From: Xenophilus aerolatus | GTDB lineage: Bacteria; Pseudomonadota; Gammaproteobacteria; Burkholderiales; Burkholderiaceae_C | Assembly: GCA_030418545.1 (NCBI GenBank) | Contig: QAIB01000012.1 | Coordinates: 62,001 to 126,000, forward strand | Direction: 5' to 3' | Length of the DNA: 64,000 nucleotides | Part shown: piece after piece, positions 5,124 to 62,019 of the stretch | Position numbering within the stretch: the first letter of the stretch is position 1 | Layout: the number at the start of each line of letters is the position of its first letter | The notes under the pieces: generated by a model | The model's database searches: none | Seen by the model: only the letters and a program-made list of their open reading frames with translations | Told to the model about the DNA's origin: nothing | Made by a program: the position numbers and the translations under genes

Positions 5124-7112
5124 TCACACCAGCAGCGCGTTCACGCGCCGCACGTAGGCCGCCGGGTCGGCGGGCAGGCCGCCTTCGGCGAGCAGCGCCT
5201 GGTCGAACAGGATGTTCGCCAGGTCGTCGAAGTGGGCCGTGTCGCTCTCCAGCTTCTTCACGAGCGGATGTTCGGCGTTCACTTCCAGCACGGGCTTGAC
5301 CTCGGGCGCCTGCTGGCCGGCCTGCTTGAGCATGCGGGCGAGCTGCATGCTCATGCCGTGGTCCTGCACCACCAGGCAGGCCGGCGAGTCGACCAGGCGC
5401 GTGGTGATGCGCACGTCCTCGGCCTTGTCCTTGAGCGCTTCCTTGAGCTTGTCGAGCACGGGCTTGAAGCTTTCGGCCGCCTGCTCGGCCGCCTTCTTCT
5501 CTTCCTCGTCCTGCAGCTTGCCCAGGTCGACCGCGCCCTTGGCCACGCTCTGCAGCGGCGTGCCGTCGAAGTCGTGCAGGTAGTTGAGCGCCCACTCGTC
5601 CACGCGGTCGGTCATCAGCAGCACCTCGATGCCCTTCTTCTTGAAGACTTCGAGCTGCGGGCTGTTCTTGGCGGCGGCCAGCGTGTCGGCGGTGATGTAG
5701 TAGATGGCCTCCTGGCCGTCCTTCATGCGCGCCTTGTAGTCGGCGAAGCTCACCGTGACGGCATCGCTGGTGGTGGAGGCGAAGCGCAGCAGCTTGGCGA
5801 TGCGCTCACGGTTGCCGAAGTCCTCGCCCAGGCCTTCCTTGAGCACCGATCCGAACTCGGCGTAGAAGGTGGCGTACTTGCCGCTGTCGTCGGCCTTCGA
5901 GGCCTCGGCTTCGCCGTCCTTCTTGTCGGTGACGTCGGTCACGCCGTCGGCATCGGCCGCCGGGGTGGGCGCGGCCTTCTTCGCCAGGTCCTCCAGCATC
6001 GACAGCACGCGCTTGGTGCTGCCCTCGCGGATCGCCTTCACGTCGCGGCTTTCCTGCAGGAGCTCGCGGCTCACGTTCAGCGGCAGGTCGGCGGAGTCGA
6101 CCACGCCGCGCACGAAGCGCAGGTAGCCCGGCAGCAGCGCCTCGGCGTCGTCCATGATGAAGACGCGCTTGACGTAGAGCTTGACGCCGCCCTTGTGGTC
6201 GCGGTTCCACAGGTCGTAGGGCGCCTTGGCGGGGATGTACAGCAGCTGCGTGTACTCGGTGCTGCCCTCGACGCGGTTGTGGCTCCAGGCCAGCGGCGCG
6301 TCCTGGTCGTGGGTGATCGACTTGTAGAAGTCGACGTACTGCTCGTCGGTGATGTCCTTCTTGGGCCGCGTCCACAGGGCGCTGGCCTTGTTGACCGGCT
6401 CCCACTCGCCCGTGGGCACCATCTCGCCGCCCTTGTTGTCCTCTCCCTCCTTCCACTCTTCCTTCTCCATGAGGATGGGCAGGGAGATGTGGTCGGAGTA
6501 CTTGGCGATGATCTGCTTGAGCTTCCAGGCGTTGAGGTACTCCTCGGCATCCTCGCGCAGGTGCAGCGTGACGCTGGTGCCGCGCTGCGCGCGCGTGAGG
6601 GTCTCGACCTCGAAGTCGCCGGCGCCGCCGCTCACCCAGCGCACGCCCTCTTCGGGCTTGAGGCCCGCGCGGCGCGACTCGACGGTGATCCTGTCGGCCA
6701 CGATGAAGCCCGAATAGAAGCCCACGCCGAACTGGCCGATCAGCTGGGCGTCGGCCTTCTGGTCGCCCGTCAGGCGGCTCATGAAGTCCTTGGTACCGCT
6801 CTTGGCGATGGTGCCCAGGTGGTCGATCGCCTCCTGCTGGCTCATGCCGATGCCGTTGTCGGTGATGGTGAGGGTACGGGCCTTCCTGTCGAAGGACACG
6901 CGCACCTCCAGGCTGGCCGCGTCCTCGTACAGCTCGGGATGGTCCAGGGCCTCGAAGCGCAGCTTGTCGCAGGCGTCAGACGCGTTGGAGATCAGCTCTC
7001 TGACAAAGATCTCCTTGTTGGAGTACAGCGAGTGCGTGACCAGGTGCAGAAGCTGTGCGACCTCGGCCTGGAAGGCATGTCGGGTGGATGCGTTGGAAGT
7101 GTTGGATGCCAT
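5124..7112 (-). CDS. htpG: Molecular chaperone HtpG (Hsp90)
   Basis: This cytoplasmic ATP-dependent chaperone is 662 residues from [12 protein letters not shown]; the open frame has an earlier start at 7124 that adds only MIRT. GHKL ATPase motifs are clear: [18 protein letters not shown] near residue 35, [20 protein letters not shown] near 80, and [15 protein letters not shown] near 120. The middle client-binding domain and C-terminal dimerisation domain follow, and the total is slightly longer than E. coli HtpG (624). Residues around 440-460 ([15 protein letters not shown]) form a charged low-complexity linker. A TACAAT-like -10 at 7189-7194 on the reverse strand may belong to its promoter. 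The tautomerase gene follows 16 bp downstream. Confidence 0.97.
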
Positions 7113-7342
7113 CGTTCTGATCAAGGAATGGGTGCCCGCGCGCGGGCCGGAGGCCCCCTCGCCAGTGCGGCGCGAGTCGGGGCGAAAAATTGTACGCAGC
7201 CGCCCTGCGTGCGCCGCCGCCCTCGGCCCGCCAGCCCACGCGACGCCGCATAGGCCTTTGGTTCTAAGGAAAAAGCAGGTCGACGCGCGGGCCAGATGCG
7301 GTCAATCTGCACCATTGCAAGACTGTTTTATCCGAGGGGTCA

Positions 7343-9556
7343 GTGCGGGGTGACGCATGCACGGCATCAATGGACAGACCGCGGTTGGGACGCCTCGGGC
7401 CCTGGCTGCTTCTTTCGCTGTTCGCGGCCCCCTCGGCGGCCGAAGAGGGCACGCCCTTGACTGATGCCCGCATCCAGCCGTTGACCCGGGGAGCGGCTGA
7501 AGAGGCGCGGCGACGCGCCCGCGTCGAGGCCGAACCGCCGGCCTACGAGGATCGCTTCATGGACGCCGCGCAGGCCGAAGCCGAGGCCCCCGCCGCTGAC
7601 GCCGCCCAACCCGAGGGCCTGCGGTCCTGGTTGTTCGAGACCCGTGCCGGTGCCGGCAGCGCCAGCGGCACCGGGCTCGGGCGACGCAGCGCTGCGGAGT
7701 ACGGCCTGCGCAGCGAATACCGCCAGGAGACGCGCGACTGGGGCGACCTGCTGCTCCAGATCGACGGCCGTACGCTGCAAGGCGACCTGCAGGCCGGCTG
7801 GAGCGGCATCGGCGGGCTGGGCTATGCGCGCGAGCGCAGCAGCGCTCGCGCCACCCTGCGCAGCCTGGGCCTGCCGCTGTCCCCCTCGGTCTTCGCCGAC
7901 ACCACGCTGGGCGACGGCTACAGCGCGGTGACGGACGGGCTCGCGCGCCACGACCGGCTGTCGCTCGGCACGACCGTCGTACGGGGCCTGTCCACGCGCA
8001 TCTACGGGCCGGACTTCGACCTGCGCGCCGGCACCGGCCAGCGCGGCATGCTCACCGGCGGCCCCTTCGCCGGGTTCGAGAGCAGCGGCGGCCGGCTCAG
8101 CTGGCTGGGTGGCACGCAGCGCCTGGACGACCAGTGGTACGTGGCCGGCCAGCTCGACGAGGCGCGCGGCGTTCCGGCCTTCTACCTCGACCCGCTGAGC
8201 GGCCTGGGCGCGGGCGCCAAGGATGTCTCCAGCTGGGCGCTTTCGGTGGGGCGCGGACCGCAATCGTTTGACGAGGGCACGCTGCGCTGGCGCGCCACCG
8301 CCATCGGCAGCCGCGTGCGCTCGGACACCCCCGGCGTCGCGACCGGCAGCGCGAGCGGGCTCTTCGTGGAGGCCAGCCTGCGGCTGGGCAGCTTCCGGCA
8401 TGAAGCAGGCGCCTATGCCGCATCGCCCAACCTGCACTTCGGCGACCTGCCGCTGCCCATCGGCACGCGCGGCGCCTACTGGCGCATGGACCGCGCCGAC
8501 AGCCGCCTGAGCTGGGGCCTGGGCCTGGACCTGGAGCACGCCGGACCGGGGAGCAACTTCACCCGCGTCGGCTACGACCGGTCCGGCGCGAGCGGCTACC
8601 TGCAATGGACGCTGGACCGCCACACCTCGCTGGGGGGCAGCTTCAACGTGTACGACACGCGCTTTGCCGGCGACGGCGAACTCGCGCAGGGGCCCACCCG
8701 TTCGCGCAGCCTCTACGCCAACGCCTACTACCAGACCCGCCTGTTCGGCCTGCCGCGCAGCCGGCTGAGCCTGACGCTGCACCGCAACGAACTGGTCGTG
8801 CTTGACGGTGCCGCGGCCACCGGCGAGGAGTTGCAATGGGAGCAGGAATGGCTCGGCAGCCGCCAGGAGACCCAGCGCACGGAACTCGTCACCACGCTCG
8901 GCTACGCGCGCGACCGCAGTGGCGGAAGGACCCGCCGCTACCCGACCGTGGGATTGCAATTCCGCTACTGGCCGCAACCCACGTTGAGCCTGGTGGGCAG
9001 CCTGCGCTACACCTCGCAGAGCGGCGACCTGTGGACCAGCCGGGGCCTGTCGGGCCAGGTGTCGGCCGAGAAGGAACTGGGCGGCGGCTGGCGTCTGGGA
9101 CTGGCCGCCAGCCTGAACCAGACGCGCGCGGCCGCCGTGCCCACGTCTTCCTTCGGGCCGCAGGTGTACCGCGGCAGCGACAAGGGCGTCTACGTCTTCC
9201 TGCGCTGGGAGGGCACGAGCGGCGTGCCCTATGCGCCGCTGGGCGTGCGTGCAGGCGCCGGCAATGGTCGCATCGAGGGTCGCGTTTTCCTCGATGCCAA
9301 CCGCGACGGCCTCGCGCAGGTCGGCGAGGGCAGCGCAGCCGGCGTCGAAGTCGTGCTCGACGGGCGCCACCGCACGACCACGGACCGCGAGGGCCGGTTC
9401 GAATTCCCGCTGGTGACGACCGGACGCCACCAGCTGAGCCTCACGCCCGAGAGCGTGCCGCTGCCCTGGGGCGGCACCGACTCGGGCATGAGCGTCGACG
9501 TGCCGCTGCGGGGCAGCGCGTACGCCACGATCCCCGTGATCAGGGTGGCGCCATGA
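7343..9556 (+). CDS. Usher-like outer-membrane barrel with C-terminal SdrD-B-like domain
   Basis: The product of about 737 residues has a signal peptide (RLGPWLLLSLFAAPSAAEEG), a short charged Ala/Glu-rich periplasmic stretch to about residue 95, a long region of alternating polar and aromatic residues ending around 615 that reads as an outer-membrane beta-barrel (repeated Tyr/Trp/Arg strands), and a C-terminal Ig-like unit GRIEGRVFLDANRDGLAQVGEG typical of SdrD-B/carboxypeptidase-regulatory-like domains. The GTG at 7343 has GAGGGGT just upstream; an ATG at 7370 is the alternative. It heads an operon with a PapD-like chaperone and three subunit-like proteins, so by position it should be the export pore. 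I could not see the N-terminal domain or plug of classical PapC ushers, so usher function is inferred from context. Confidence 0.72.
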   Translation: MRGDACTASMDRPRLGRLGPWLLLSLFAAPSAAEEGTPLTDARIQPLTRGAAEEARRRARVEAEPPAYEDRFMDAAQAEAEAPAADAAQPEGLRSWLFETRAGAGSASGTGLGRRSAAEYGLRSEYRQETRDWGDLLLQIDGRTLQGDLQAGWSGIGGLGYARERSSARATLRSLGLPLSPSVFADTTLGDGYSAVTDGLARHDRLSLGTTVVRGLSTRIYGPDFDLRAGTGQRGMLTGGPFAGFESSGGRLSWLGGTQRLDDQWYVAGQLDEARGVPAFYLDPLSGLGAGAKDVSSWALSVGRGPQSFDEGTLRWRATAIGSRVRSDTPGVATGSASGLFVEASLRLGSFRHEAGAYAASPNLHFGDLPLPIGTRGAYWRMDRADSRLSWGLGLDLEHAGPGSNFTRVGYDRSGASGYLQWTLDRHTSLGGSFNVYDTRFAGDGELAQGPTRSRSLYANAYYQTRLFGLPRSRLSLTLHRNELVVLDGAAATGEELQWEQEWLGSRQETQRTELVTTLGYARDRSGGRTRRYPTVGLQFRYWPQPTLSLVGSLRYTSQSGDLWTSRGLSGQVSAEKELGGGWRLGLAASLNQTRAAAVPTSSFGPQVYRGSDKGVYVFLRWEGTSGVPYAPLGVRAGAGNGRIEGRVFLDANRDGLAQVGEGSAAGVEVVLDGRHRTTTDREGRFEFPLVTTGRHQLSLTPESVPLPWGGTDSGMSVDVPLRGSAYATIPVIRVAP

Positions 9557-9643
9557 CTGCAGCACACGCCCGGCCGGTGCCTGCACCGCGCCACCGCTCT
9601 GCCACCGACCGGCTCTCCACCGCCTCCACCTGAAAGACCCACC

Positions 9644-10264
9644 ATGAACGCACCCATCCTGCGCCATTGCACGTTCGCCGCTGTCTGCGGCCTGCTCCTT
9701 GCCGGTGTCAGCGCACCGGCCCGCGCCGAAGCCACCTACGGCTACAACGATGCGGGCACCGGCACCGTCACCGCGACCGCTCGCGTCAATCTGTCGGTGC
9801 GCGTGCCCAAGCTCATCCTGCTGCGGGTGGGCAGCACCGACACGACGGTCGACACCCTGACGTGGACCGCCACCGCCAGCATTCCGCCGGTGCCCACCGT
9901 GGCCGCCAACGGCAGCAGCACCCCCGTCAACTGGGACGGCACCGCACCGAGCTTCGCCTTCGGCACACAGCCGGGCGCGCTGGCGGTCTACGCCTGGACC
10001 AACGCCGGCACCGCCACCATCAACTGCGCTTTGAGCGCCTGGCTGCCCGGCACCGGGCCCGGCCCGACGGGTGCCGACTTCAGCGTGACCGCGAGCGGCA
10101 CGCTGCCGCACCCGGGCGCCAACCTGGGCGCGTGCACGTCCACCGCCTTCCCCTCCAATGTCGTGGCGACCGGCACCTGGGCGTACACCCTGACCGGCAC
10201 GCCGACCGCGTGGGCCGCAGGCAACCACACGGCCACGCTGACCTACACCGCCACCGGCATCTGA
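9644..10264 (+). CDS. Secreted fibre subunit-like protein, copy 1
   Basis: The 206-residue protein has a signal peptide ending near SAPARAEATYGYND at about residue 30. The mature protein is rich in Thr, Ala, Gly and Val with a strongly beta character. The segment ARVNLSVRVPKLILLRVG followed by STDTTVDTLTWTATAS is shared with the products at 12203-12808 and, more weakly, 10267-10878, so the three form one paralogous set. Two cysteines (TINCALSAW and NLGACTS) could form one disulfide, as in many pilins. It starts 87 bp after the barrel gene and ends 2 bp before the next. Role as a pilin-like subunit is inferred from the chaperone and barrel in the operon; I do not recognise a named family. Confidence 0.7.
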   Translation: MNAPILRHCTFAAVCGLLLAGVSAPARAEATYGYNDAGTGTVTATARVNLSVRVPKLILLRVGSTDTTVDTLTWTATASIPPVPTVAANGSSTPVNWDGTAPSFAFGTQPGALAVYAWTNAGTATINCALSAWLPGTGPGPTGADFSVTASGTLPHPGANLGACTSTAFPSNVVATGTWAYTLTGTPTAWAAGNHTATLTYTATGI

Positions 10265-10266
10265 GC

Positions 10267-10878
10267 GTGCTCCACCGCATCGGCTCGCCCGGTCAGGGCA
10301 GCACCCTTGCCGGCGCGGTCGCGCTCGCCCTCGTGCTGGTACCGGCCGGGACGGCGCAGGCGGTCATCACGACCACCCTGCTGAGCCTGTCGGGCAACCG
10401 TCTGACGCTGCGCGTGGGCTCCGCGGGCGGCACCATCGACAACGTCGCCTTCACGGTCAGCGGCGCCAACCTGCAACCCAGCCCGGCGCCGGTGACGCAG
10501 CCGGACACCGTGACCGTGCTGCTGACTGCCGACAAGGCGCTGCTGGCCCTGGCCGTCAACACCGTGCGCCTGACGGTGACGGCCGCACCGGGCCTGGACT
10601 GCACCACACCGACCAGCTGCGGCAGCACCAGCATCCCGTTCTCGACCATCGGCTGGGTGTCGACGAACCCCGACGCGACAGGACAGGACATCCAGAGCGG
10701 CAGTTTCAATGCCTCCGGCAGCCCGCAGCAACTGGCGCAATTCCCGCTGCCCCTGCTCTCGGTGCTGTCGGCCCGCACCGAGATGAACAACGCGCTGCGC
10801 TTCAGCTATGCCAACAGCACGCTCTATCTCTCCGGCACCTACACCGGCCGCGTGACCTTCACCGCCACCATGTTCTGA
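10267..10878 (+). CDS. Secreted fibre subunit-like protein, copy 2
   Basis: The 203-residue product starts at a GTG two bases after the preceding stop; a longer open frame extends upstream but overlaps the previous gene entirely. The signal peptide (STLAGAVALALVLVPAGTAQA) ends at about residue 32. The mature start RLTLRVGSAGGTIDNVAFTVSG lines up with LRVGSTDTTVDTLTWTATAS and LRIGPTGATVPTVGFTLTPS of its neighbours. Cysteines occur in GLDCTTPTSCGSTS. The C-terminus TLYLSGTYTGRVTFTATMF is an amphipathic strand ending in Phe, like the final strand of chaperone-assembled subunits. It is the most divergent of the three and could be a tip or adaptor subunit; that is inference. Confidence 0.68.
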   Translation: MLHRIGSPGQGSTLAGAVALALVLVPAGTAQAVITTTLLSLSGNRLTLRVGSAGGTIDNVAFTVSGANLQPSPAPVTQPDTVTVLLTADKALLALAVNTVRLTVTAAPGLDCTTPTSCGSTSIPFSTIGWVSTNPDATGQDIQSGSFNASGSPQQLAQFPLPLLSVLSARTEMNNALRFSYANSTLYLSGTYTGRVTFTATMF

Positions 10879-10881
10879 GCC

Positions 10882-11397
10882 ATGGCCCTGCCCTTGTCCC
10901 TCCACCGGCGCACGTGTGCGGGCGCACTCGCCGGGCTGCTGCTGGCTGCCGGCGGCGCAGCCGTGTCGCAGGTGCACCGGCTGGACGATTCGACCTCGCC
11001 GCGCAGCCGGGTCCAGGCGCGCCCGGACGAGGACGGCGATGCGGCGTCCTCCGCCGTATCGCCCCACCTCACGGTGCGCTTCGACGGCATCGAATACCGC
11101 CTGGCCACCGCGCCCTTCGTCGGCCGCAGGGCCCGCATCTTCTACGTGGTGCCGCCCTTCATTCCCGGGCTGCGCTCGCCGGCGGGCATGCGGGTCGAGT
11201 GGCGCACGGGCGGGCTCTTCGCGCCGGGCATGGCCAGGCCGGGCGAGCGTCGGCTGGTCTGGAGCGGCACCGTCCCCGGCCCCTGGATGAGCGAGCGCTT
11301 CGACCTGCGCGTGCAGTTCGACCGCCGCGAGCTGCGGCCCGTGCCCGGCGGTGCGCTGGACTACGAGGCCTACTTCGAGATGGAGGTGTTGCCATGA
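10882..11397 (+). CDS. Unknown secreted protein in the fibre operon
   Basis: The 171-residue protein has a signal peptide (RTCAGALAGLLLAAGGAAVSQ) and then an acidic, Arg-rich mature part. The first 30 mature residues look disordered (RSRVQARPDEDGDAASSA). After that come predicted strands: LTVRFDGIEYRLAT, ARIFYVVPPFIPGLRS, MRVEWRTGGLFAPG and ERFDLRVQFDRRELRPVPGG. No cysteines are seen in the mature protein and I do not recognise a family. It begins 3 bp after the second subunit gene and its stop overlaps the start of the chaperone gene (ATGA), so it is translationally coupled to the system and probably part of it, perhaps as a periplasmic accessory or surface component. Confidence 0.7.
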   Translation: MALPLSLHRRTCAGALAGLLLAAGGAAVSQVHRLDDSTSPRSRVQARPDEDGDAASSAVSPHLTVRFDGIEYRLATAPFVGRRARIFYVVPPFIPGLRSPAGMRVEWRTGGLFAPGMARPGERRLVWSGTVPGPWMSERFDLRVQFDRRELRPVPGGALDYEAYFEMEVLP

Positions 11398-12206
11398 CAG
11401 GCCTTCGTGTCGCAGCGCTGCTGCTGGCCGGCGGCATGGCGCCCGGTGCGGCCCCGGCCGCGCCCTTCGAGATGGCCGTGGCGCCGTCGCGCTTCGAACT
11501 CTCGGGCGCGCGAGGCGGACGGATCGGCCAGACGCTGGAACTGCAGAACGTCGGCAACCAGTCGACCGAGGTCGCGGTCCGCACCATCGACTGGCGCCTC
11601 GGCGAGGACGGCAGCGTCAGCTACCACGACGCCCTGCTCTCCGACAGTTGCCGCCCCTGGGTGCTGCTGGAGCGTCCACGGGTGCGGCTGGCGCCGCGCG
11701 AGCGCCGCAGCTTCCGCTTCCAGATCGACCTGCCGCCCGACGCACCGCGGCGCGAATGCCGATTCATGCTGGCCATCGAAGGCGTGGAACCGGCCTACCA
11801 TGCGGCGGTGCAGGGTCGCGGCCTGAGCCTGGCGCTGCCCGTCACCGGACGCATCGCGGTGGCGGTGTACCTCGCCGTCGAAGGAGCAGCGCCGCGGCTG
11901 TCCATGCTCGGCGTCGGCATGCGCGAGGGCCCGCAGGGACGCACGCCGGTGGTGACGGTGCGCAACGACGGCGATGCGCACGGCCGGCTCGGCGGCAGCC
12001 TCGAGGGCGTCGATGCACACGGCCAGCGGCACGACTGGCTGCCGGACAGCACGCCGGTGCTGCCGGGGCAAACGCGCGCACTCACGCTCACCCCGCGGGC
12101 GGCCGAGGACGGTGGCCCGCCGGCACGGCCGACCTACCCGGTGCGGGCGCGCGGCACCGTCGACTGGGAGGACGGCAGCTTCCAGGTGGAGGCCGAGTTC
12201 CGATGA
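11394..12206 (+). CDS. PapD-like periplasmic chaperone
   Basis: The 270-residue protein has a signal peptide (VAALLLAGGMAPGAAPAAP) and then an Ig-like two-domain layout. Domain 1 holds FEMAVAPSRFELSGARGG, LELQNVGNQSTEVAVRTIDW and VRLAPRERRSFRFQIDLPP, the same order of strands and the proline/arginine-rich donor-strand region as PapD/archaic chaperones. Domain 2 runs from about residue 150 (RIAVAVYLAVEG) to the end (VDWEDGSFQVEAEFR). Such chaperones hold pilin subunits in the periplasm and complete their fold until the usher takes them. It overlaps the genes on both sides by 4 bp, tying it to the subunits. Cysteines DSCRPW and RRECRF may pair. Confidence 0.75.
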   Translation: MTGLRVAALLLAGGMAPGAAPAAPFEMAVAPSRFELSGARGGRIGQTLELQNVGNQSTEVAVRTIDWRLGEDGSVSYHDALLSDSCRPWVLLERPRVRLAPRERRSFRFQIDLPPDAPRRECRFMLAIEGVEPAYHAAVQGRGLSLALPVTGRIAVAVYLAVEGAAPRLSMLGVGMREGPQGRTPVVTVRNDGDAHGRLGGSLEGVDAHGQRHDWLPDSTPVLPGQTRALTLTPRAAEDGGPPARPTYPVRARGTVDWEDGSFQVEAEFR

Positions 12207-12808
12207 GCCGCCGGGCATTCGTCCTGGGGCTGGCGGCCTCGGCGCTGGCCCTGCCCGCACGGGCGGAAGAAACGACGGACAACACCAGCCCCTACGCCGC
12301 CACCGCGCGGCTGGACTTCACGATCCGCATCGACAAGTTCATCTACCTGCGCATCGGCCCGACGGGTGCCACCGTGCCGACGGTGGGCTTCACGCTGACA
12401 CCGTCGATCCCCTCCGCGCCGACCACCCCCGCCAATGGCGCCGGCATTGCCGTGCCCTGGAACGGCGGGGCGCCGGGGTGGACGGTGGCGGCCAGCAACG
12501 CGGTGCTGCCGGTCGAGGTGCGCAGCAATGCGGGCACCGTCACCCTGCGTGCCAGCGTGGCGGCGCCCCTGAGCAACGGATCGGCGACCTTGCCGATGAC
12601 CGCCGTCACCATCAGTTCGGACAACGCCGGTCTGCCCGCACCACCGCTGCCGGCGAGCGGTTCGGGCACCGCGGTCAACGTGGCCGGCACCGCCTTCGGC
12701 AACCTGGTCACGCAGCAAAGCGCGAACTGGAGCTTCGCCTTCGCAGCCGCCAATCCCCCCGCCGGCCAGTACAGCGGCCAGGTCGGCTTCACCGCCAGCG
12801 CGCCCTGA
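12203..12808 (+). CDS. Secreted fibre subunit-like protein, copy 3
   Basis: The 201-residue product begins MSRRAFVLGLAASALALPARA, a signal peptide with a twin-arginine-like start, cleaved near residue 22. The mature part ATARLDFTIRIDKFIYLRIG, then PTGATVPTVGFTLTPSIPS, parallels copy 1 residue for residue over about 60 positions (including TVAANGSS/TPANGAGI and NWDGTAPSF/PWNGGAPGW). It has no cysteines in the mature protein, unlike copy 1. The start overlaps the chaperone stop (ATGA), placing it last in the six-gene operon; it ends 23 bp from the convergent iron-binding-protein gene. Likely a structural subunit. Confidence 0.7.
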   Translation: MSRRAFVLGLAASALALPARAEETTDNTSPYAATARLDFTIRIDKFIYLRIGPTGATVPTVGFTLTPSIPSAPTTPANGAGIAVPWNGGAPGWTVAASNAVLPVEVRSNAGTVTLRASVAAPLSNGSATLPMTAVTISSDNAGLPAPPLPASGSGTAVNVAGTAFGNLVTQQSANWSFAFAAANPPAGQYSGQVGFTASAP

Positions 12809-12831: not shown

Positions 12832-13872
12832 TCAGCGCGGCAGCGACTCGACCTCTCGGGTCCAGCGCTCGATCAGCCGCTTGCGCTCGGCCGCCTTGCC
12901 GTACTTCTCGAAGTCGTACTTGATGAGCTTCACGTCGGCCATCGACGGGATGCGCGGGTCGGGCTTGAAGCTTCGATTGGCCGGCGACTGCAGGCTGCCG
13001 TTCTTCGCGCCCAGGGCCTGGCCGGCAGGGCTCATGAGGAAGTCGTAGTACTTGATGGCATTGGCCTTGTTGCGCGCGCCCTTCACCAGCGCGATGCCGC
13101 CCACCTCGTAGCCTGTGCCCTCGCAGGGCGCCGCCGTCTTGACCGGGAATTTGTCGTAGCGCCACTTCTCGAAGCCGAAGATGAAGCTCACGCCGATGCC
13201 GACCTCGCCCTTGGCCACGTTGGGCGCCTGGGCCTGGCCGCTGCGCGTGTAGTTGCTCACGTTGGCGTGCAGCTTCTTGAGGTAGTCGAAGGCCACGTCC
13301 TCGCCCATCAGCTGCACCAGGCCCGCGATCACGGTGTAGGCCGTGCCGCTGGTCGCTGGGTGGGAGATCTCGATCTCGCCCTTGTATTCGGGCTTGACCA
13401 GGTCGGCCCAGCACTTCGGCTCGTGCAGCCGCTTCTTCCTGAGCGTGTCGGTGTTGAAGCCGAAGCCGATGGCGCTGGTGTAGAAGCCGCCGACCATGTT
13501 CCCGCTCATCGCGTACTGGCGCACAGCCCAGTCGTACAGGTCGTTGATGTAGGCCGGGCGGTAGGCGTCGAGCAGGCCCTGCTCGGCCGCCTGCAGGAAG
13601 GGGTCGCCGGTGCCGCCCCACCACAGGTCGGTCTTGGGGTTCTGGGCTTCGGCGCGCAGTTGGGCCGCGATCTCGCCCGTGCCCTTGTGGGCCTGGTTCA
13701 CCTTGATGCCCGTGGTGCGCGTGAACTCGGCGGCCGCGGCCTCGCACCAGCCGGCGTCGGTGCTGCACAGCGCGTTGACCACGCCCTGCGCCCGAACGTT
13801 CGAGGAAAAAAGGGCTGCAGCGCCCGCCAGTGCCGCGCAGGCAGCGATCGTTTGGATGGCAATCCGTGGCAT
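12832..13872 (-). CDS. Iron(III)-type ABC transporter substrate-binding protein
   Basis: The 346-residue periplasmic protein starts at MPRIAIQTIAACAAL, with GGAG about 12 bp upstream, rather than at the far upstream start of the frame. A signal peptide ends near SSNVRAQGVV. The motifs VNALCSTDAGWCEAAAAEFTR, LWWGGTGDPFLQAAEQGLL, YTSAIGFGFNTD and ISHPATSGTAYTVIAGL match the FbpA/FutA-like group of type 2 binding proteins for ferric iron, thiamine, phosphonate or organic ligands. No permease or ATPase gene is adjacent, so it may serve a system encoded elsewhere. The ligand is not certain; Tyr residues typical of ferric binding (FYTSAIGFGF) are present. Confidence 0.85.
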   Translation of the reverse strand: MPRIAIQTIAACAALAGAAALFSSNVRAQGVVNALCSTDAGWCEAAAAEFTRTTGIKVNQAHKGTGEIAAQLRAEAQNPKTDLWWGGTGDPFLQAAEQGLLDAYRPAYINDLYDWAVRQYAMSGNMVGGFYTSAIGFGFNTDTLRKKRLHEPKCWADLVKPEYKGEIEISHPATSGTAYTVIAGLVQLMGEDVAFDYLKKLHANVSNYTRSGQAQAPNVAKGEVGIGVSFIFGFEKWRYDKFPVKTAAPCEGTGYEVGGIALVKGARNKANAIKYYDFLMSPAGQALGAKNGSLQSPANRSFKPDPRIPSMADVKLIKYDFEKYGKAAERKRLIERWTREVESLPR

Positions 13873-14095
13873 CGCAACGCACTCCAGCATCGGCCGGCAG
13901 CCGGGGCGAGCAGCATAGCGCGGGCCGGCGCCCTGGCGGCGCAATCGAAAACCGCAGGCAGCGTGAAGAGCTGCGCGCAAAGCGTCTGCAAAGCAGTTGG
14001 CAAGGCCGCGCCCGTTCCTAGAATCCGCCCCCGAAACGACGGCCCTGCGGCCGTCTTTCTCTTTCTTTCTCGCAACCACACAAGGACTTCAGGGA

Positions 14096-14803
14096 ATGGA
14101 CACACAACACACCGTCAAGGCGTGGGCGGCCGAATTCGTCGGCACCTTCTGGCTCGTACTCGGCGGCTGCGGCAGCGCTGTGCTCGCCGCCGGCTTTCCG
14201 CAACTGGGCATCGGCTTCGCCGGCGTGGCGCTGGCCTTCGGCCTCACCGTGCTCACGGGCGCCTACGCGCTGGGGCCCATCTCGGGCGGCCACTTCAACC
14301 CAGCGGTGTCCATCGGCCTGACGGTCGGCGGGCGCTTTCCGGCCGCGCGCCTGCCGGGCTACATCGTCTCGCAGGTGCTCGGCGGGATCGCGGCGGCCGG
14401 CGTGCTGTGGCTGATCGCCAGCGGCAAGGCCGGCGCACAGCTGGGCGGCTTCGCCACCAACGGCTACGGCGAGCACTCGCCCGGCGGCTACTCGATGCGG
14501 GCGGCGCTGGTGTGCGAGGTGGTGCTGACGGCGGTCTTCCTGGTCGTCATCCTCGGCGCCACGGCCAAGCGGGCCGCCGCGGGCTTCGGCGGCCTCGCGA
14601 TCGGCCTGTGCCTCACGCTCATCCACCTGGTGTCGATCCCGGTGACCAACACCTCGGTCAACCCGGCGCGCAGCACCGGCGTGGCGCTCTTCGGCCCCGG
14701 CTATGCGATGGGCGAGCTGTGGCTGTTCTGGGTGGCGCCGATCGTCGGGGCGGTGCTGGGGGCGCTGGTGTGGCGTGGGCTGCTGGCCAGCCGCGACGAC
14801 TGA
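14096..14803 (+). CDS. aqpZ: Aquaporin Z
   Basis: The 235-residue inner-membrane protein has six hydrophobic spans and the two pore half-helix motifs: [12 protein letters not shown] near residue 65 and [12 protein letters not shown] near 185. The arginine after the second NPA (NPAR) and short length are those of water-selective AqpZ rather than the longer glycerol facilitators. The start [18 protein letters not shown] is preceded by AGGGA 3-7 bp upstream, which is close; the frame remains open further 5' but that part lacks membrane character. It ends 24 bp from the convergent autotransporter gene. Confidence 0.95.
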
Positions 14804-14827: not shown

Positions 14828-17800
14828 CTACCAGCGGACTTTCACCCCCAGGCTCGCATTCAGGCCCCCGCGCACGCGGGTGTCGCCCCCGGTGGCCCAG
14901 CTCTTGCCGACCTCTCCATAGAGGCTCGCGCCGGGCCTGAACTGCCAGCTCGCACCCGCCACCAGCTCGGCGCTGCTGCCACCCGTCGCGGTGCCGAAGC
15001 CGGTGGCGCCGCCCAGCCCGATGAAGCGCGTCGTGTCGGTGCCCGACGAGCGCCGGGACCAGTTGATCTGGGCGTAGGGCTGCACCGGGCCTGCAGCCGT
15101 GCTCAGGTCGCCCTTGATCCGCAGGCCCGCGCGCGCGATCCAGCCGCTGTGCAGGTCCTGCTGGACCGTCGCGCCCGAGAGCACTGCATCGTCCAGGCTC
15201 AATCGCTGGTGCACCAGTTGCACCTGCGGCTCCAGACTCCAGCCCGGCGCGATGGCGAAGCTCTTGCCGACCTCGACCGAAGCCAGCAGGCCGTTGCCCT
15301 TGCCGCCGCTGCGCGGGCCCAGCGTGGGCATCACGGTGTAGCGGTGGCGCGATGCCTGCAGCACGCCGTCGACATACAGGCCGGATTCGCCCTGCCAGGT
15401 GACATAGCCGCCCAGGAATTGGCTCCGCACGTCGGTCGAGCCTGCGTCGTAGCCCACCATGCCTCGCGCGAAGCCGCGCACGCGCAGGTCGCCTTCCAGT
15501 TGACCCACGTACACGCCGGCGCGCCACGGCCCATCGACCCACAGGTCGGTGCCGGCCTGCAGCCCCTTCAAGCGGCCGCGGCTGGTCGGCGCCAGCTCTC
15601 CGCCCTGGCGGATGTCCTTGTCCAACGTGATGAAGCGCGCCCAGGCACGTCGGCCGGTCCGCCCGTCGGCATCGCCGCCCACCGGGTCATCGCCGGTGCG
15701 CTGGCGTGAGCCGCCGAGCATGGCCAGGTCGGCCTGCCGCAGCTGCGCACCGATGGCGGTGTAGATCGGCGCCTCCGCCCGATAGGTGGGAATGGCCGCG
15801 CCGGGGATGCCGCCGCCACCGCCACCGCCCCCATTGCCTCCCCCGTCGCCCCCGCCTGAGCCACCCCCATCTCCTCCTCCGCCGCCGCCGCCTCCGATGT
15901 TGTTGGTGAGGTACACCGCGCTGTCGGTCCGCGCGAGTCGGTAGTCGTAGGCGCCGGCCGAGACCGGCGCCGCCAGTTGGAACACACCGCTGCCGAGGGC
16001 GCCGCCGTTCGCGGTGCCCACCAGCTCGAGCCCGTTGCCCGTGGTCGGCGCGCCGAGCCCCTGGTCGACGATGCGCAGGTTGGTGGTGCCGGTGGCGCTG
16101 GCCCCCGACCCGCTGAGCACCAGCCGGTCCGCCGTGGCGCCGGCGCCCTGCTGCAGCACACCGCCGCTGCTTGCCCACGTGCCGGTGACCGTGAGCACGG
16201 TGCCGGGCGCCGTGCCGGCCAGGCTGACGGTGCCGGCGTTCGCCACCGACGGCAGCGTCTGGTTGTGGCCCGCCTGGTCCAGCGTCGCACCCGGCGCGAT
16301 TGCATAGGCGCCGCCTCCACCGAAGGCGCCGGCCGCGCCGGCCTGCAGGGTGCCGGCGGCGACCGTGGTGCTTCCGGTGTAGTTGTTGTTGGCCACGGCG
16401 AGCTGCAGCGTGCCGAGCCCGTCCTTGACCAGATCGGCCGTGCCGCCGATGCCCCCGGACAGCACCGCCGAGTGGCCGGCGGTGTCGACGGTGAACGCGC
16501 CGACACCCGCTGTGGTGATCGGGTTCGGAAGTGCGATGCCGTCGGCCGAGAAGCCGAGGGTTGTGCCCGCCGCCGCTGTCAGCGGGCCGGTCCCGAGCGA
16601 CGTGGCAGTGCCGACGTTCAGACGCCCGGCATCCAGCATCGTGCCGCCGCCGTAGCTGCTGCTGCCGCTCAAGGTCAGCGTGCCGGGTCCGGCCTTGACC
16701 AGGCTGCCGCTGCCGGAGAGCCCGCCGGCGTAGCTCGTGTCGATCGCCTGGTCGACCGTGAGGGTCTGGCCTTGCAGAGCGACGTTGCCGCCCGTGCCCG
16801 CCAGGCTCGAGGCGGTGAGGTCCCAACTGCCGAGGTCGAGCGTGCCGCCGTTCACGGTGTAGCCAGTGCCCTGCACGAAGGCACCGGCGCTGCCGGCCGC
16901 CAATGTGCCGGCCTCGACGGTGGTGCCACCGGCGTAGCTGTTGGTGCCAGTCAGGGTGTGCGTGCCGGTGCCCAGCTTGACGATGCCGCCCAGGCCGGTG
17001 ATGTCGCCCGCGAACACGGAACCGGATGCATCGCCGAAGCGCAGGTCGTTGCCGCCCAGCCGCACCGCGCTGCCCGCCGCGCCACTCAGGGCACCGATCG
17101 TGCGGTCCCCGTCCGCACCTGAAATGTCGAAGCTCGCGCCGCCCGCCACGTCGACCGCGCCCTGCGCCGACAGGCTGCCCGCGCCCGACAGCGCCAGCGT
17201 ACCGCCGTCGATGGCGGTGCCCCCCGTGAAGGTGTTCGCACCGGTGAGCGTCTGCGTGCCCGGACCCTGCTTCACGATGCTGCCGGTGCCTTCGATGACG
17301 CCGGCGTAGCTCTGGCTGCTGGCGTCCCCGAAGCTCAGCGTGTTGCCGCCGAGCTGCACGGCACCGCCCGTTCCCGCGAGCGAGCCGATCGTCTGCGGTG
17401 CCGAGGCGGCCGCGATGTCGAAGCGGCCGCCCGCATTGACCGTGACCGCACCGCCGGGCGCCAGGCTGCCAGCGCCCGCGAGCGCCAGCACACCGGCATC
17501 GACGGTGGTGCCGCCCGTGTGGCCCTGTGCGGCCGTGAGCGTCTGGATGCCGCTGCCCTGCTTCAGGATGCCGCCCGCACCGGCGAACGTGCCGCCGAAC
17601 ACCTGGTCGCTCGCATCGCCGAAGGCAAGATCGTTGGCGCCGAGCTGCACCGTGGTGCCACCCGCACCCGCCAGCGCGCCGATCGTCTGCGCTGCCCCCG
17701 AGGCCGCGATGTCGAACACGGTGCCCGGCTGCGCCAGATCGATCGCGCCGGTGGCGAGCAGGCTGCCGCCGGCGCCGAGTGCCAGCGTGCCGGCGTTGAT

Positions 17801-20569
17801 GGTGGTTCCGCCGCCGTAGGTGCTGGCCCCCGTGAGCGTCTGCGTGCCGCTGCCCTGCTTCACGACGGCGCCGCTGCCGGCGATGCTGCCCGCGAACACC
17901 TGGTTGCTCGCATCGCCGAAGGCCAGTGTGTTGCCGCCCAGCTGGACGGTGGAACCTGCCGCGCCCGACAGCGCCCCGACGCTCCGGGCGCCCGAGGCGC
18001 CGCCGATGTCGAACACCGTGCCCGCGTTCGCCAGGTCGAGCGCGCCGGTCGACAGCAGGCTGCCCCCGCCGCCCAGTGCCAGTGTTCCGCCGGTGATCGT
18101 CGTGCCGCCGGCGAAGGTGTTCGCGCCGCTCAGCGTCTGCGTGCCGGCTCCCTGCTTCACGATACCGCCGCCGCCCGTGATGGCGCCGGCGAAGGTCTGG
18201 CTGCTGGCATCGCCGAAGCCCAGGCCGCCGGCGCCGAGCTGGACGGTGGTGCCGGCGACGCCCGAGAGCGACCCGACGGTCCGCGCTCCGCCCGCCGCGC
18301 TCAGGTCGAAGGCCGCGCCGCTGGCGGTGAGGCTCAGTGCGGTCGAGGGTGCGATGCTTCCTCCGCCGGCCAGCGCCAGCGTGCCGGCGGTGACGGTCGT
18401 GGGCCCGGCGTAGACGTTGGCTCCCGTCAGCGTCTGCGTGCCGCTGCCCTGCTTCACGATGCCGCCGCTGCCGCTGATGCTGCCGGCGAAGGTCTGGTTG
18501 CTGCCATCCCCGAAGGCCAGGCTGTTGGCGCCCAGGGCCACCGTCGTGCCTGCGGTTCCGGCAAGGCCGCCCACCGTGCGGTTGCCGTCGGCCGCGGCGA
18601 TGTCGAAGACGGCCCCGGGATTGGCCAGGGCCAGGACGCCGGTCGGCGCCAGACTGCCGGCGCCTGCCAGCGCCAGCGTGCCGGCGTTCACCGTGGTACC
18701 GCCGGCGAAGGCGTTCACGCCGGTGAACGTCTGCGTGCCCGCCCCCTGCTTCACGATGCCGCCGCTGCCCGTGATCGTGCCGGCGAAGGTCTGGCTGGTT
18801 CCGTTGCCGAAGCCCAGCGTGTTCGCGCCCAGCGTGACGGTCGACCCCGACGCGCCCGACAGCGCAGCCACTGTGCGGTTGCCGTCGGCCGTTGCGATGT
18901 CGAAGCCGGTGCCCGCCCCCGCGAGGTTCACGCTGCTGCCTGCGGCCAGGCTGCCGGCGCCCGACAGCGCGAGCGTGCCGCCGGCGATGGTGGTCGTGCC
19001 GGTGTAGGTGTTGACGCCCGTCAGCGTCTGCGTACCGGTGCCCTGCTTGACGATGCCGCCCGTGCCGGTGATGGCGCCCGCAAAGCTCGTGTTCTGCACG
19101 TCGCCGAATGCCAGTGTGTTCGCGCCCAGCGAGACCGTCGAGCCGGCGGCGCCCGACAGGCTGCCCACCGTCCGGCTGCCTGCCGCCGCACTCAGATCGA
19201 AGGCCGCACCGGCACCGAGCGTCACGGCGGCTGTCGGCGCGAGGCTGCCGCTGCCGGCGAGCGCCAGTACGCCGCCGTTGATGGCCGTGCCGCCGGTGTA
19301 GGTGTTGGTGCCCGACAGCGTGAGCGTGCCAGCGCCGCCCTTCGACAGGCCGCCGCCGCCGGAGAGCACGCCCGAGAGGTTGAAGGCGTTCGCACCCTCC
19401 ACGGCCAGGCCGCCGGCGTTCAGCGTGAAGGCGTTGCCCAGCGTGACGCCGGGCACCGCCGCGGAGAGCGCACCCCCGTTGGCCGTGACCGTGCCCGCAC
19501 CGAAGGCGGCACCGCTGTTGATGTTGGCCAGGCCGCCATTGAGCGTCGCATCGCCCGACACCAGCGCGCCCTGGATGTTCCAGGTGCCGCTGTTGACGGT
19601 GAGGTGCTGGAAGTTGCGGTAAGTGGCACCCGACACGGAGCTCACCCCGCCCGCAACGCCGCTGCCGGTGCCTGCCTCCGGAAGCACGTTCTGCAGCACC
19701 AGCGTGTTGTTCCCGCCCGCCCCGCCGTCGACGACGCCCGTGGGCGCAAAGCCCAGCGTCACCCCAGCCAGCCCGAGCACGTTCAGGTCCAGGCCCAGCC
19801 CGCCACCGGAATTGACCGAGGACCCCGACACCGCCGTGAAGGTGTTGCTGCTGTTGGCGCCCATGGACACGCCGCCGTTGATGGTGCCGGCGTTGGCGAA
19901 GGTGTTGCCGGTGCCTGCCGTGCCCGATGCCTGGAAGGCCACGCGCCCCGTGATGAGACCCGTGTTGACGAAGTTCGTCCGCGCGCCGCCATAGCTGGCG
20001 ACCACCGGCGCATCGGCGCCCAGCAGCGTGACGCCGAGCAGCGCATTGCTGCCGATGGTGCCTTCGTTGCGGATGGTGGTCACGCCGCCGGTTCCGTTCT
20101 GCGTGGCCAGCGCCATGCCCGTCAGGCCGAGCAGGTTCAGCCCGAGCACGCCGGTGGTGCCGCGAATGACACCGCCGACGTTGTTGGTGACGCTGACGTT
20201 GCTCGCCGATGCGTTGCCGATGACTGCGCCGGACGACAGCACGGAGAGCAGGCCCAGCAGCGACGGATCGATCGTTCCGCTGTTGTTCAGCTGGGCGTTG
20301 TTGCCCGTCATGGTGAGCGCCGTGTCCCCCAGCAGCACGCCAACGCCCGCGCCGGGTTCGACGTTCACCGTCGTGTCGTCCGCTGCCGTGGAGAAGCTCG
20401 GTGCGAACGGGTTGGCCGCTCCGGAACAGGTGACCGTGGAACCTGCTGTGGTGCACACGGCCCAGGCGGGCTGCGCCGCCCAGGGCACGGCGATCGCGAT
20501 CGCCACCGTGGGCCAGACAAGCTTGCCGATGCGAGCCGGGCCAGGCCGCGAGCCATCCGTCGTGGGCAT
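14828..20569 (-). CDS. Giant autotransporter adhesin with PATR-type repeats
   Basis: At 1,913 residues this is the largest gene in the window. It has a signal peptide (AIAIAVPWAAQPAWA, cleaved near residue 37), an N-terminal passenger of about 370 residues with polar Asn/Gly/Thr beta-helix composition, then eight repeats of 99 residues and three degenerate ones. Each repeat contains IVKQGxGTQTLTGxNxYxGGTT and the autotransporter-associated beta-strand (PATR) signature. A Gly/Asp/Asn/Ser-only linker of about 28 residues (bases about 15800-15895) precedes the C-terminal autotransporter barrel, from GRRAWARFITLDKDIRQGG to a final VKVRW. Such type Va proteins cross the outer membrane through their own barrel and act as adhesins or biofilm factors. 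The adjacent two-component pair on the same strand may control it. Confidence 0.93.
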   Translation of the reverse strand: MPTTDGSRPGPARIGKLVWPTVAIAIAVPWAAQPAWAVCTTAGSTVTCSGAANPFAPSFSTAADDTTVNVEPGAGVGVLLGDTALTMTGNNAQLNNSGTIDPSLLGLLSVLSSGAVIGNASASNVSVTNNVGGVIRGTTGVLGLNLLGLTGMALATQNGTGGVTTIRNEGTIGSNALLGVTLLGADAPVVASYGGARTNFVNTGLITGRVAFQASGTAGTGNTFANAGTINGGVSMGANSSNTFTAVSGSSVNSGGGLGLDLNVLGLAGVTLGFAPTGVVDGGAGGNNTLVLQNVLPEAGTGSGVAGGVSSVSGATYRNFQHLTVNSGTWNIQGALVSGDATLNGGLANINSGAAFGAGTVTANGGALSAAVPGVTLGNAFTLNAGGLAVEGANAFNLSGVLSGGGGLSKGGAGTLTLSGTNTYTGGTAINGGVLALAGSGSLAPTAAVTLGAGAAFDLSAAAGSRTVGSLSGAAGSTVSLGANTLAFGDVQNTSFAGAITGTGGIVKQGTGTQTLTGVNTYTGTTTIAGGTLALSGAGSLAAGSSVNLAGAGTGFDIATADGNRTVAALSGASGSTVTLGANTLGFGNGTSQTFAGTITGSGGIVKQGAGTQTFTGVNAFAGGTTVNAGTLALAGAGSLAPTGVLALANPGAVFDIAAADGNRTVGGLAGTAGTTVALGANSLAFGDGSNQTFAGSISGSGGIVKQGSGTQTLTGANVYAGPTTVTAGTLALAGGGSIAPSTALSLTASGAAFDLSAAGGARTVGSLSGVAGTTVQLGAGGLGFGDASSQTFAGAITGGGGIVKQGAGTQTLSGANTFAGGTTITGGTLALGGGGSLLSTGALDLANAGTVFDIGGASGARSVGALSGAAGSTVQLGGNTLAFGDASNQVFAGSIAGSGAVVKQGSGTQTLTGASTYGGGTTINAGTLALGAGGSLLATGAIDLAQPGTVFDIAASGAAQTIGALAGAGGTTVQLGANDLAFGDASDQVFGGTFAGAGGILKQGSGIQTLTAAQGHTGGTTVDAGVLALAGAGSLAPGGAVTVNAGGRFDIAAASAPQTIGSLAGTGGAVQLGGNTLSFGDASSQSYAGVIEGTGSIVKQGPGTQTLTGANTFTGGTAIDGGTLALSGAGSLSAQGAVDVAGGASFDISGADGDRTIGALSGAAGSAVRLGGNDLRFGDASGSVFAGDITGLGGIVKLGTGTHTLTGTNSYAGGTTVEAGTLAAGSAGAFVQGTGYTVNGGTLDLGSWDLTASSLAGTGGNVALQGQTLTVDQAIDTSYAGGLSGSGSLVKAGPGTLTLSGSSSYGGGTMLDAGRLNVGTATSLGTGPLTAAAGTTLGFSADGIALPNPITTAGVGAFTVDTAGHSAVLSGGIGGTADLVKDGLGTLQLAVANNNYTGSTTVAAGTLQAGAAGAFGGGGAYAIAPGATLDQAGHNQTLPSVANAGTVSLAGTAPGTVLTVTGTWASSGGVLQQGAGATADRLVLSGSGASATGTTNLRIVDQGLGAPTTGNGLELVGTANGGALGSGVFQLAAPVSAGAYDYRLARTDSAVYLTNNIGGGGGGGGDGGGSGGGDGGGNGGGGGGGGIPGAAIPTYRAEAPIYTAIGAQLRQADLAMLGGSRQRTGDDPVGGDADGRTGRRAWARFITLDKDIRQGGELAPTSRGRLKGLQAGTDLWVDGPWRAGVYVGQLEGDLRVRGFARGMVGYDAGSTDVRSQFLGGYVTWQGESGLYVDGVLQASRHRYTVMPTLGPRSGGKGNGLLASVEVGKSFAIAPGWSLEPQVQLVHQRLSLDDAVLSGATVQQDLHSGWIARAGLRIKGDLSTAAGPVQPYAQINWSRRSSGTDTTRFIGLGGATGFGTATGGSSAELVAGASWQFRPGASLYGEVGKSWATGGDTRVRGGLNASLGVKVRW
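16986..19350 (-). repeat. Tandem 297-bp repeats inside the autotransporter gene
   Basis: Eight consecutive 99-codon units occupy this stretch. Nearly identical phrases recur at each unit, such as VKQGSGTQTLTG, LALAGAGSL and LAFGDASNQTFAG. Six of the eight are exactly or nearly 99 residues, so homologous recombination could change copy number without a frameshift. Boundaries are set by eye at the VKQG/SKGG motif. Confidence 0.85.
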
Positions 20570-61959: not shown

Positions 61960-62019
61960 CAGACGCGCCTGAACGGCGCGGCTGCAGGCGCGGGGCGCCC
62001 CCATTGGCACCCTCCCCTG

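Follow-up and report, generated by a model that had tools for sequence, protein, structure and literature searches.

Gene content and conservation of the operon

A six-gene operon lies on the plus strand at positions 7343 to 12808 of a 64,000-nucleotide stretch of the Xenophilus aerolatus contig QAIB01000012.1 (the window, contig positions 62,001 to 126,000). It encodes, in order, an outer-membrane barrel protein, the exported proteins g2, g3, and g4, a two-domain chaperone, and g6 (Table 1). From sequence comparison, we regard it as probably a chaperone-usher-type fibre assembly operon of a new branch whose relationship to the archaic class is remote. An earlier note, made from the DNA letters alone, had described six closely packed plus-strand genes, four of whose five junctions were gaps under 5 bp or 4-bp overlaps; the coordinates and the inter-gene distances along the operon (+87, +2, +3, -4, and -4 bp) agree with it in both respects. 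The signal peptides it assigned to all six proteins were borne out by eye, each N terminus showing a run of hydrophobic residues and what resembles a signal-peptidase site. A promoter scan of the locus found none, and a terminator scan gave two matches, both on the minus strand, against 1.4 expected.

Table 1. Features of the operon, in window coordinates (aa, amino acids; Ig-like, immunoglobulin-like)
Feature	Position	Strand	Remarks
Gene 1, outer-membrane barrel protein, putative stripped-down usher	7343..9556	+	737 aa from GTG 7343; 728 aa from ATG 7370
Segment between signal peptide and barrel, ~66 aa, with conserved YxD motif	7442..7639	+	Boundaries by eye
Barrel region of gene 1	7640..9265	+	Residues 91-632, numbered from ATG 7370
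C-terminal Ig-like domain of gene 1 (SdrD_B/CarboxypepD_reg-like), proposed usher CTD1	9266..9553	+	
Gene 2 (g2), putative fibre subunit, alternating strand at N terminus	9644..10264	+	
Proposed donor-strand segment of g2, TVTATARVNLSVRV	9764..9805	+	Alternating hydrophobic columns in 57 sequences; putative role
Gene 3 (g3), g2/g6-family subunit with short N terminus, proposed tip	10267..10878	+	GTG start
Gene 4 (g4), exported protein, no known fold	10882..11397	+	
Gene 5, periplasmic chaperone, two Ig-like domains	11394..12206	+	
Gene 6 (g6), putative fibre subunit, g2 paralogue	12203..12808	+	
Proposed donor-strand segment of g6, ATARLDFTIRID	12299..12334	+	Alternating hydrophobic columns in 64 sequences; putative role

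At E <= 1e-3, and with 8000 candidates scored per search, we recovered at least 99 homologues of the barrel protein and at least 446 of the chaperone. Among 300 genomes of the order, 10 carried the chaperone (own genome counted), representing 8 of 135 genera. With one genome sampled per species, it was present at 56 loci; a search of plasmid records gave no chaperone match. Hosts of related loci include Comamonadaceae, Thiothrix/Thiolinea, and Lysobacter. Of 63 related loci compared, 56 had the full set, consisting of barrel, chaperone, g3, g4, and one or more g2/g6 subunits. Five of the seven others are truncated at contig ends (L019, L030, L039, L063, and L106) and one is masked (L024). Given the numbers of barrel and chaperone homologues and the recurrence of the gene set, the operon is not a chance arrangement, and its reality is confirmed. 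A separate locus comparison took in seven of the nine other chaperone-positive genomes of the order (all except G030 and G242); barrel, chaperone, g4, and g3 were found in all seven and a g2/g6-type subunit in six, the locus without one beginning at a contig end. Xenophilus sp. E41 (L011), the closest record with a name, encodes all six proteins with 100% identity.

The earlier note had proposed conservation of gene order as a check; the order and orientation of the genes vary among loci. The order barrel-g2-g3-g4-chaperone-g6 was found in 28 loci, and 6 others have this order plus an additional g2; the chaperone comes last in 3, and in diverged relatives the barrel gene lies downstream or on the opposite strand. 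Two module copies are adjacent in L032, L057, and L058; in the Hydrogenophaga-type loci L057 and L058, the second copy is diverged and has the barrel last. At L049:2957-5012, the barrel gene is in two separate pieces and is probably broken or misassembled.

Comparison with known chaperone-usher systems

None of the six proteins scored over the cut-off for any usher, chaperone, or pilin family in Pfam and NCBIfam, and the same was true of the distant relatives scanned. The usher family PF00577 had no match in the barrel protein, in seven distant relatives, or in the organism's own genome, and PF16967 (the TcfC domain) had none in the barrel protein or own genome. When an alignment of nine distant barrel sequences was used as the query, 24 proteins were retrieved, with PF00577 listed for none. 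The operon's subunits and their scanned relatives had no Pfam match to SCPU (PF05229). DUF4402 (PF14352) matched nowhere, controls included, so that search was uninformative. Across 80 genomes of the order, searches with PF00577, PF00345, and SCPU do find matches, in 14, 13, and 14 genomes, respectively; own genome has no match to any of the three, and the barrel protein is therefore the only candidate assembly platform found there. A PDB search with a profile of 77 barrel proteins returned only the B domains of SdrD and UafA, and a search with a profile of 22 chaperones gave no convincing match. Certain sources label relatives of the chaperone "fimbrial chaperone" or "pili assembly chaperone." Among the listed matches of open-licence PMC papers, no title describes such a system.

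More remote relationships were assessed by comparing profiles. Own-family profiles were built from the related loci, and comparison profiles were built from the order's usher, chaperone, and SCPU proteins, leaving out L118, L130, and L169 (cut by contig ends), one empty SCPU row, and identical sequences. The comparison ushers are labelled archaic because all 15 adjoin an SCPU match. Further profiles represented FimC/FimD and EcpA/B/C, with LptD, TonB receptors, and CarboxypepD_reg as controls.

The chaperone matched the 13 archaic chaperones across both domains (E = 2.8e-11 over 210 columns), far above the score of the reversed profile (0.12). Classical chaperones gave no match (0.12), and the match to EcpB was weak (7.9e-5). 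Since the archaic match so far exceeds the reversed-profile scores, sequence homology of the chaperone to archaic chaperones can be called firm. Direct matches to PapD_N (PF00345) were seen in 2 of 22 chaperones (E = 0.08). Other weak Pfam matches among the 22 were to WxLIP_PGBD (5 sequences, best 4.4e-4), fn3_5 (6 sequences, 0.0016), and type IV Pilin (3 sequences, 0.01). We read all of these, PapD_N included, as generic Ig-like resemblance or chance.

The barrel protein matched the 15 archaic ushers with E = 1.9e-11, in a collinear alignment that covers the barrel's second half and continues into the usher domain CTD1. Without its C-terminal domain (CTD), it matched the archaic usher barrel at 2.4e-5, and the C-terminal half of the barrel alone did so at 5e-6, compared with 0.0044 to 0.011 for LptD and 6.8e-4 to 1.2e-3 for TonB receptors; the first half gave no usher match. 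The CTD matched archaic usher CTD1 over the whole domain (E = 8.2e-12, 73 columns). The SdrD-B-like domain described in the earlier note is present at the C terminus, although its SdrD_B score (E = 2.9e-5, 24.7 bits) is below the Pfam cut-off of 29.7; it sits at the position of usher CTD1 and aligns as such. Judged by the barrel and CTD profile scores relative to those of LptD, TonB, CarboxypepD_reg, and the reversed controls, the barrel protein is likely a usher homologue.

The N-terminal chaperone-docking domain of ushers comprises roughly 100 to 125 residues. Its profile did not match the barrel protein in place (E >= 0.05), a comparison of limited power because the archaic N-terminal domain likewise left EcpC unmatched (E = 0.43, in an earlier comparison set). 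By eye, only ~66 residues precede the predicted barrel here and ~35 in L102, which is too little room for such a domain. This short segment contains a YxD motif whose Y59 and D61 are invariant in 35 sequences. In L100 and L103, a LysM-like (peptidoglycan-binding) segment lies ahead of the YxDR motif and barrel; the L100 scores are weak (LysM, E = 0.017; FimV_core, 0.057), and L103 was assigned by alignment. The sole match to a CTD2 profile (5.2e-4) fell on the CTD1-like domain itself, and because the protein ends after that domain, CTD2 is absent. Plug profiles scored E >= 0.16 on the barrel and >= 0.057 on focused regions. The earlier note had seen neither a usher N-terminal domain nor a plug; the former is indeed unmatched, whereas absence of a plug does not follow, as the 542-aa barrel region could hold one. 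A plug-like stretch picked out by eye (FDLRAGxGxRGxLxGGPYPGF) gained no support in the focused profile comparison. Amphipathic-strand peaks numbered 24 in the barrel region against 9.4 in shuffled sequences, a count we dropped as proof of a barrel because the non-barrel chaperone exceeded its null too (16 against 8.6).

The three subunit-like proteins g2, g3, and g6 belong to a single family (g3-g6, E = 3.1e-22; g3-g2, 3.9e-8; g2-g6, 3.2e-33, own-family profiles only). As far as the profiles indicate, this putative subunit family is new and belongs to no catalogued family, in line with the earlier statement that the subunits match no known pilins. A match of g6 to FimA (6.9e-6) was lost when the signal peptide was trimmed (0.055), and the best SCPU scores of mature g2, g3, and g6 (0.0053 to 0.026) all fell on the last SCPU strand. 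An alternating hydrophobic strand is found at the N terminus of g2 (57 sequences) and g6 (64 sequences). Under a rough cleavage rule, the median distance from the N terminus to an xRVG motif was 38 residues in g2 (57 of 57 sequences parsed), 34 in g6 (52 of 64), and 20 in g3 (38 of 63). The g3 N terminus is ~14 to 17 residues shorter, and g3 seems to be without the donor-like strand of its relatives. In every compared locus showing both, g4 comes after g3; neither g4 nor its scanned relatives had a family match in Pfam or NCBIfam. Five of its residues near the mature N terminus (R33, D35, D36, S37, and S39) are each at least 90% conserved among 64 distinct family sequences.

Among described pathways, the module is closest to the archaic (sigma) pathway of Csu type, which it resembles in both chaperone domains, in the second half of the barrel and CTD1, and in operon layout. 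It differs in that no N-terminal domain or CTD2 was found, in subunits that are not SCPU, in anchor residues of the chaperone, and in the extra conserved g4. The likeness to the alternate pathway (E. coli common pilus [ECP] and CFA/I) is limited to the weakly EcpB-like chaperone, whereas the barrel compared with EcpC at a match probability of <=1% and the subunits are not EcpA-like. With the classical pathway (Fim and Pap), the module shares a general gene set, but its chaperone and its barrel (match probability <=1%) fit no classical profile. The CTD also recalls the B domains of SdrD/UafA and CarboxypepD_reg domains; here, however, it is a single domain on an outer-membrane barrel, and in profile comparison it lies closer to usher CTD1.

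Proposed assembly and competing explanations

The chaperone-usher layout put forward in the earlier note is upheld by the recurring gene set and the remotely archaic-like chaperone and barrel. Its suggestion of a divergent or new system stands as to divergence and not as to novelty of origin, since these two proteins (2.8e-11 and 1.9e-11) are remote archaic relatives. That note had also held that this would be a known system if the barrel strongly matched the profile of an established usher family and the subunits those of established pilins; the combination was looked for and not found. In the assembly we propose, g2, g3, and g6 would be exported by Sec, and the G1 strand of the chaperone would hold them unfolded or half-folded. 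The complexes would be brought to a reduced usher consisting of barrel and CTD1. Because the canonical N-terminal docking domain and CTD2 are absent, docking would have to rely on CTD1, on the short YxD-bearing stretch ahead of the barrel, or on g4. Donor-strand exchange through the alternating N-terminal strands of g2 and g6 would then give a linear fibre, with g3, whose short N terminus seemingly has no such strand, possibly at its tip.

Several observations weigh against this reading. The worst false positive among the reversed-profile controls reached E = 1.9e-4 (reversed CTD against classical plug), the barrel-only match to ushers is just ~100-fold better than the TonB controls, and the usher match of the whole protein rests heavily on CTD1. 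In profile comparison, the subunits matched none of SCPU, FimA, and EcpA, a test of low power because SCPU against FimA itself fails (E = 0.23). One locus among the 63, L023, is a true exception to the gene set, with chaperone and g6 only (L023:3686-5249; by eye, these stand beside a band-7-like gene, as a remnant or reduced locus). In CsuC, according to PMC4654587, Arg89, Tyr196, and Arg174 bind the subunit carboxylate, and Pro59 is termed invariant across the chaperone superfamily. Allowing for possible alignment shifts of one or two residues, the Arg174 column holds R in 64 of 64 chaperones, but all 64 have P at the Tyr196 column, 51 have M and 13 have A at the Arg89 column, and 59 have R at the Pro59 column. 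Two positions upstream of the Arg89 column, an Arg is conserved in 22 of 22 chaperones. The carboxylate anchor therefore seems altered relative to CsuC.

The CTD also matches generic CarboxypepD_reg (E = 2.5e-9 over 43 columns), and by itself it is therefore no proof of usher descent. A non-usher outer-membrane barrel might instead have gained a CarboxypepD_reg-like domain and taken over the export of chaperone-bound subunits. Such convergence would fit the missing matches to the usher N-terminal domain, plug, and CTD2, the unmatched first half of the barrel, and a barrel-only similarity (2.4e-5) that is modest beside the TonB scores. We nevertheless consider it unlikely, given the stronger, whole-domain CTD1 match, the usher match running in the same order straight into CTD1, and the archaic-like partner chaperone. 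Somewhat less likely again is a module that makes no fibre and whose Ig-like subunits form a surface coat or secreted complex, in the manner of spore-coat proteins. That no fibre has been seen, and that some relatives have only one g2/g6-type subunit, would suit a coat; so would g4 and single-domain g3, for which we know of no counterpart in described pili. In contrast, the pattern found, an alternating strand in g2 and g6 and seemingly none in g3, is what a linear, tipped polymer held together by donor strands needs, and g2-type genes are repeated in some loci.

That chaperone and barrel are remote homologues of their archaic counterparts, together with the EcpB score of the chaperone (7.9e-5), might also reflect an ordinary archaic or alternate (CFA/I- or ECP-like) system whose sequences have merely drifted. 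We find this highly improbable: no usher N-terminal domain or CTD2 was found, neither SCPU nor another pilin family matched, PF16967 is missing from the genome, the CsuC anchor residues are not conserved, and the extra gene g4 is kept. Moreover, in L100 (G022:C1), an archaic-type operon (PF00345 chaperone, PF00577 usher, and SCPU) starts ~1.3 kb beyond the module's barrel gene; because both occur separately in one genome, the module and the SCPU-type operon are distinct. With several hallmarks of the archaic class proper looked for and not found, we do not file the module as an archaic pilus. Going beyond a new branch related to that class, it may be, though we put this forward tentatively, a further class of chaperone-usher system, with a usher that has neither N-terminal docking domain nor CTD2, recruitment by g4 or CTD1, new subunits, and a single-domain tip.

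Genomic surroundings and significance

By eye, the genes flanking the operon are unrelated and of housekeeping type: an HtpG-like gene (5124-7124, minus strand) on one side, and genes for an ABC-type extracellular binding protein-like product (12832-14079, minus strand) and an aquaporin-like product (13997-14803, plus strand) on the other. Beyond them, at 14828-20569 on the minus strand, lies a gene for a 1913-aa protein with many near-repeats and an apparent C-terminal autotransporter barrel, likewise recognised by eye.

If the putative usher works without an N-terminal domain and CTD2, the module would be a test of which components the assembly machinery truly needs. Should the reading as a chaperone-usher-type system be true, g4 would be a candidate pilus-assembly protein with a new role, and the operon would represent a widespread, unnamed type of surface fibre in environmental Burkholderiales, Thiothrix, and Lysobacter, the genes of which are currently annotated as hypothetical.

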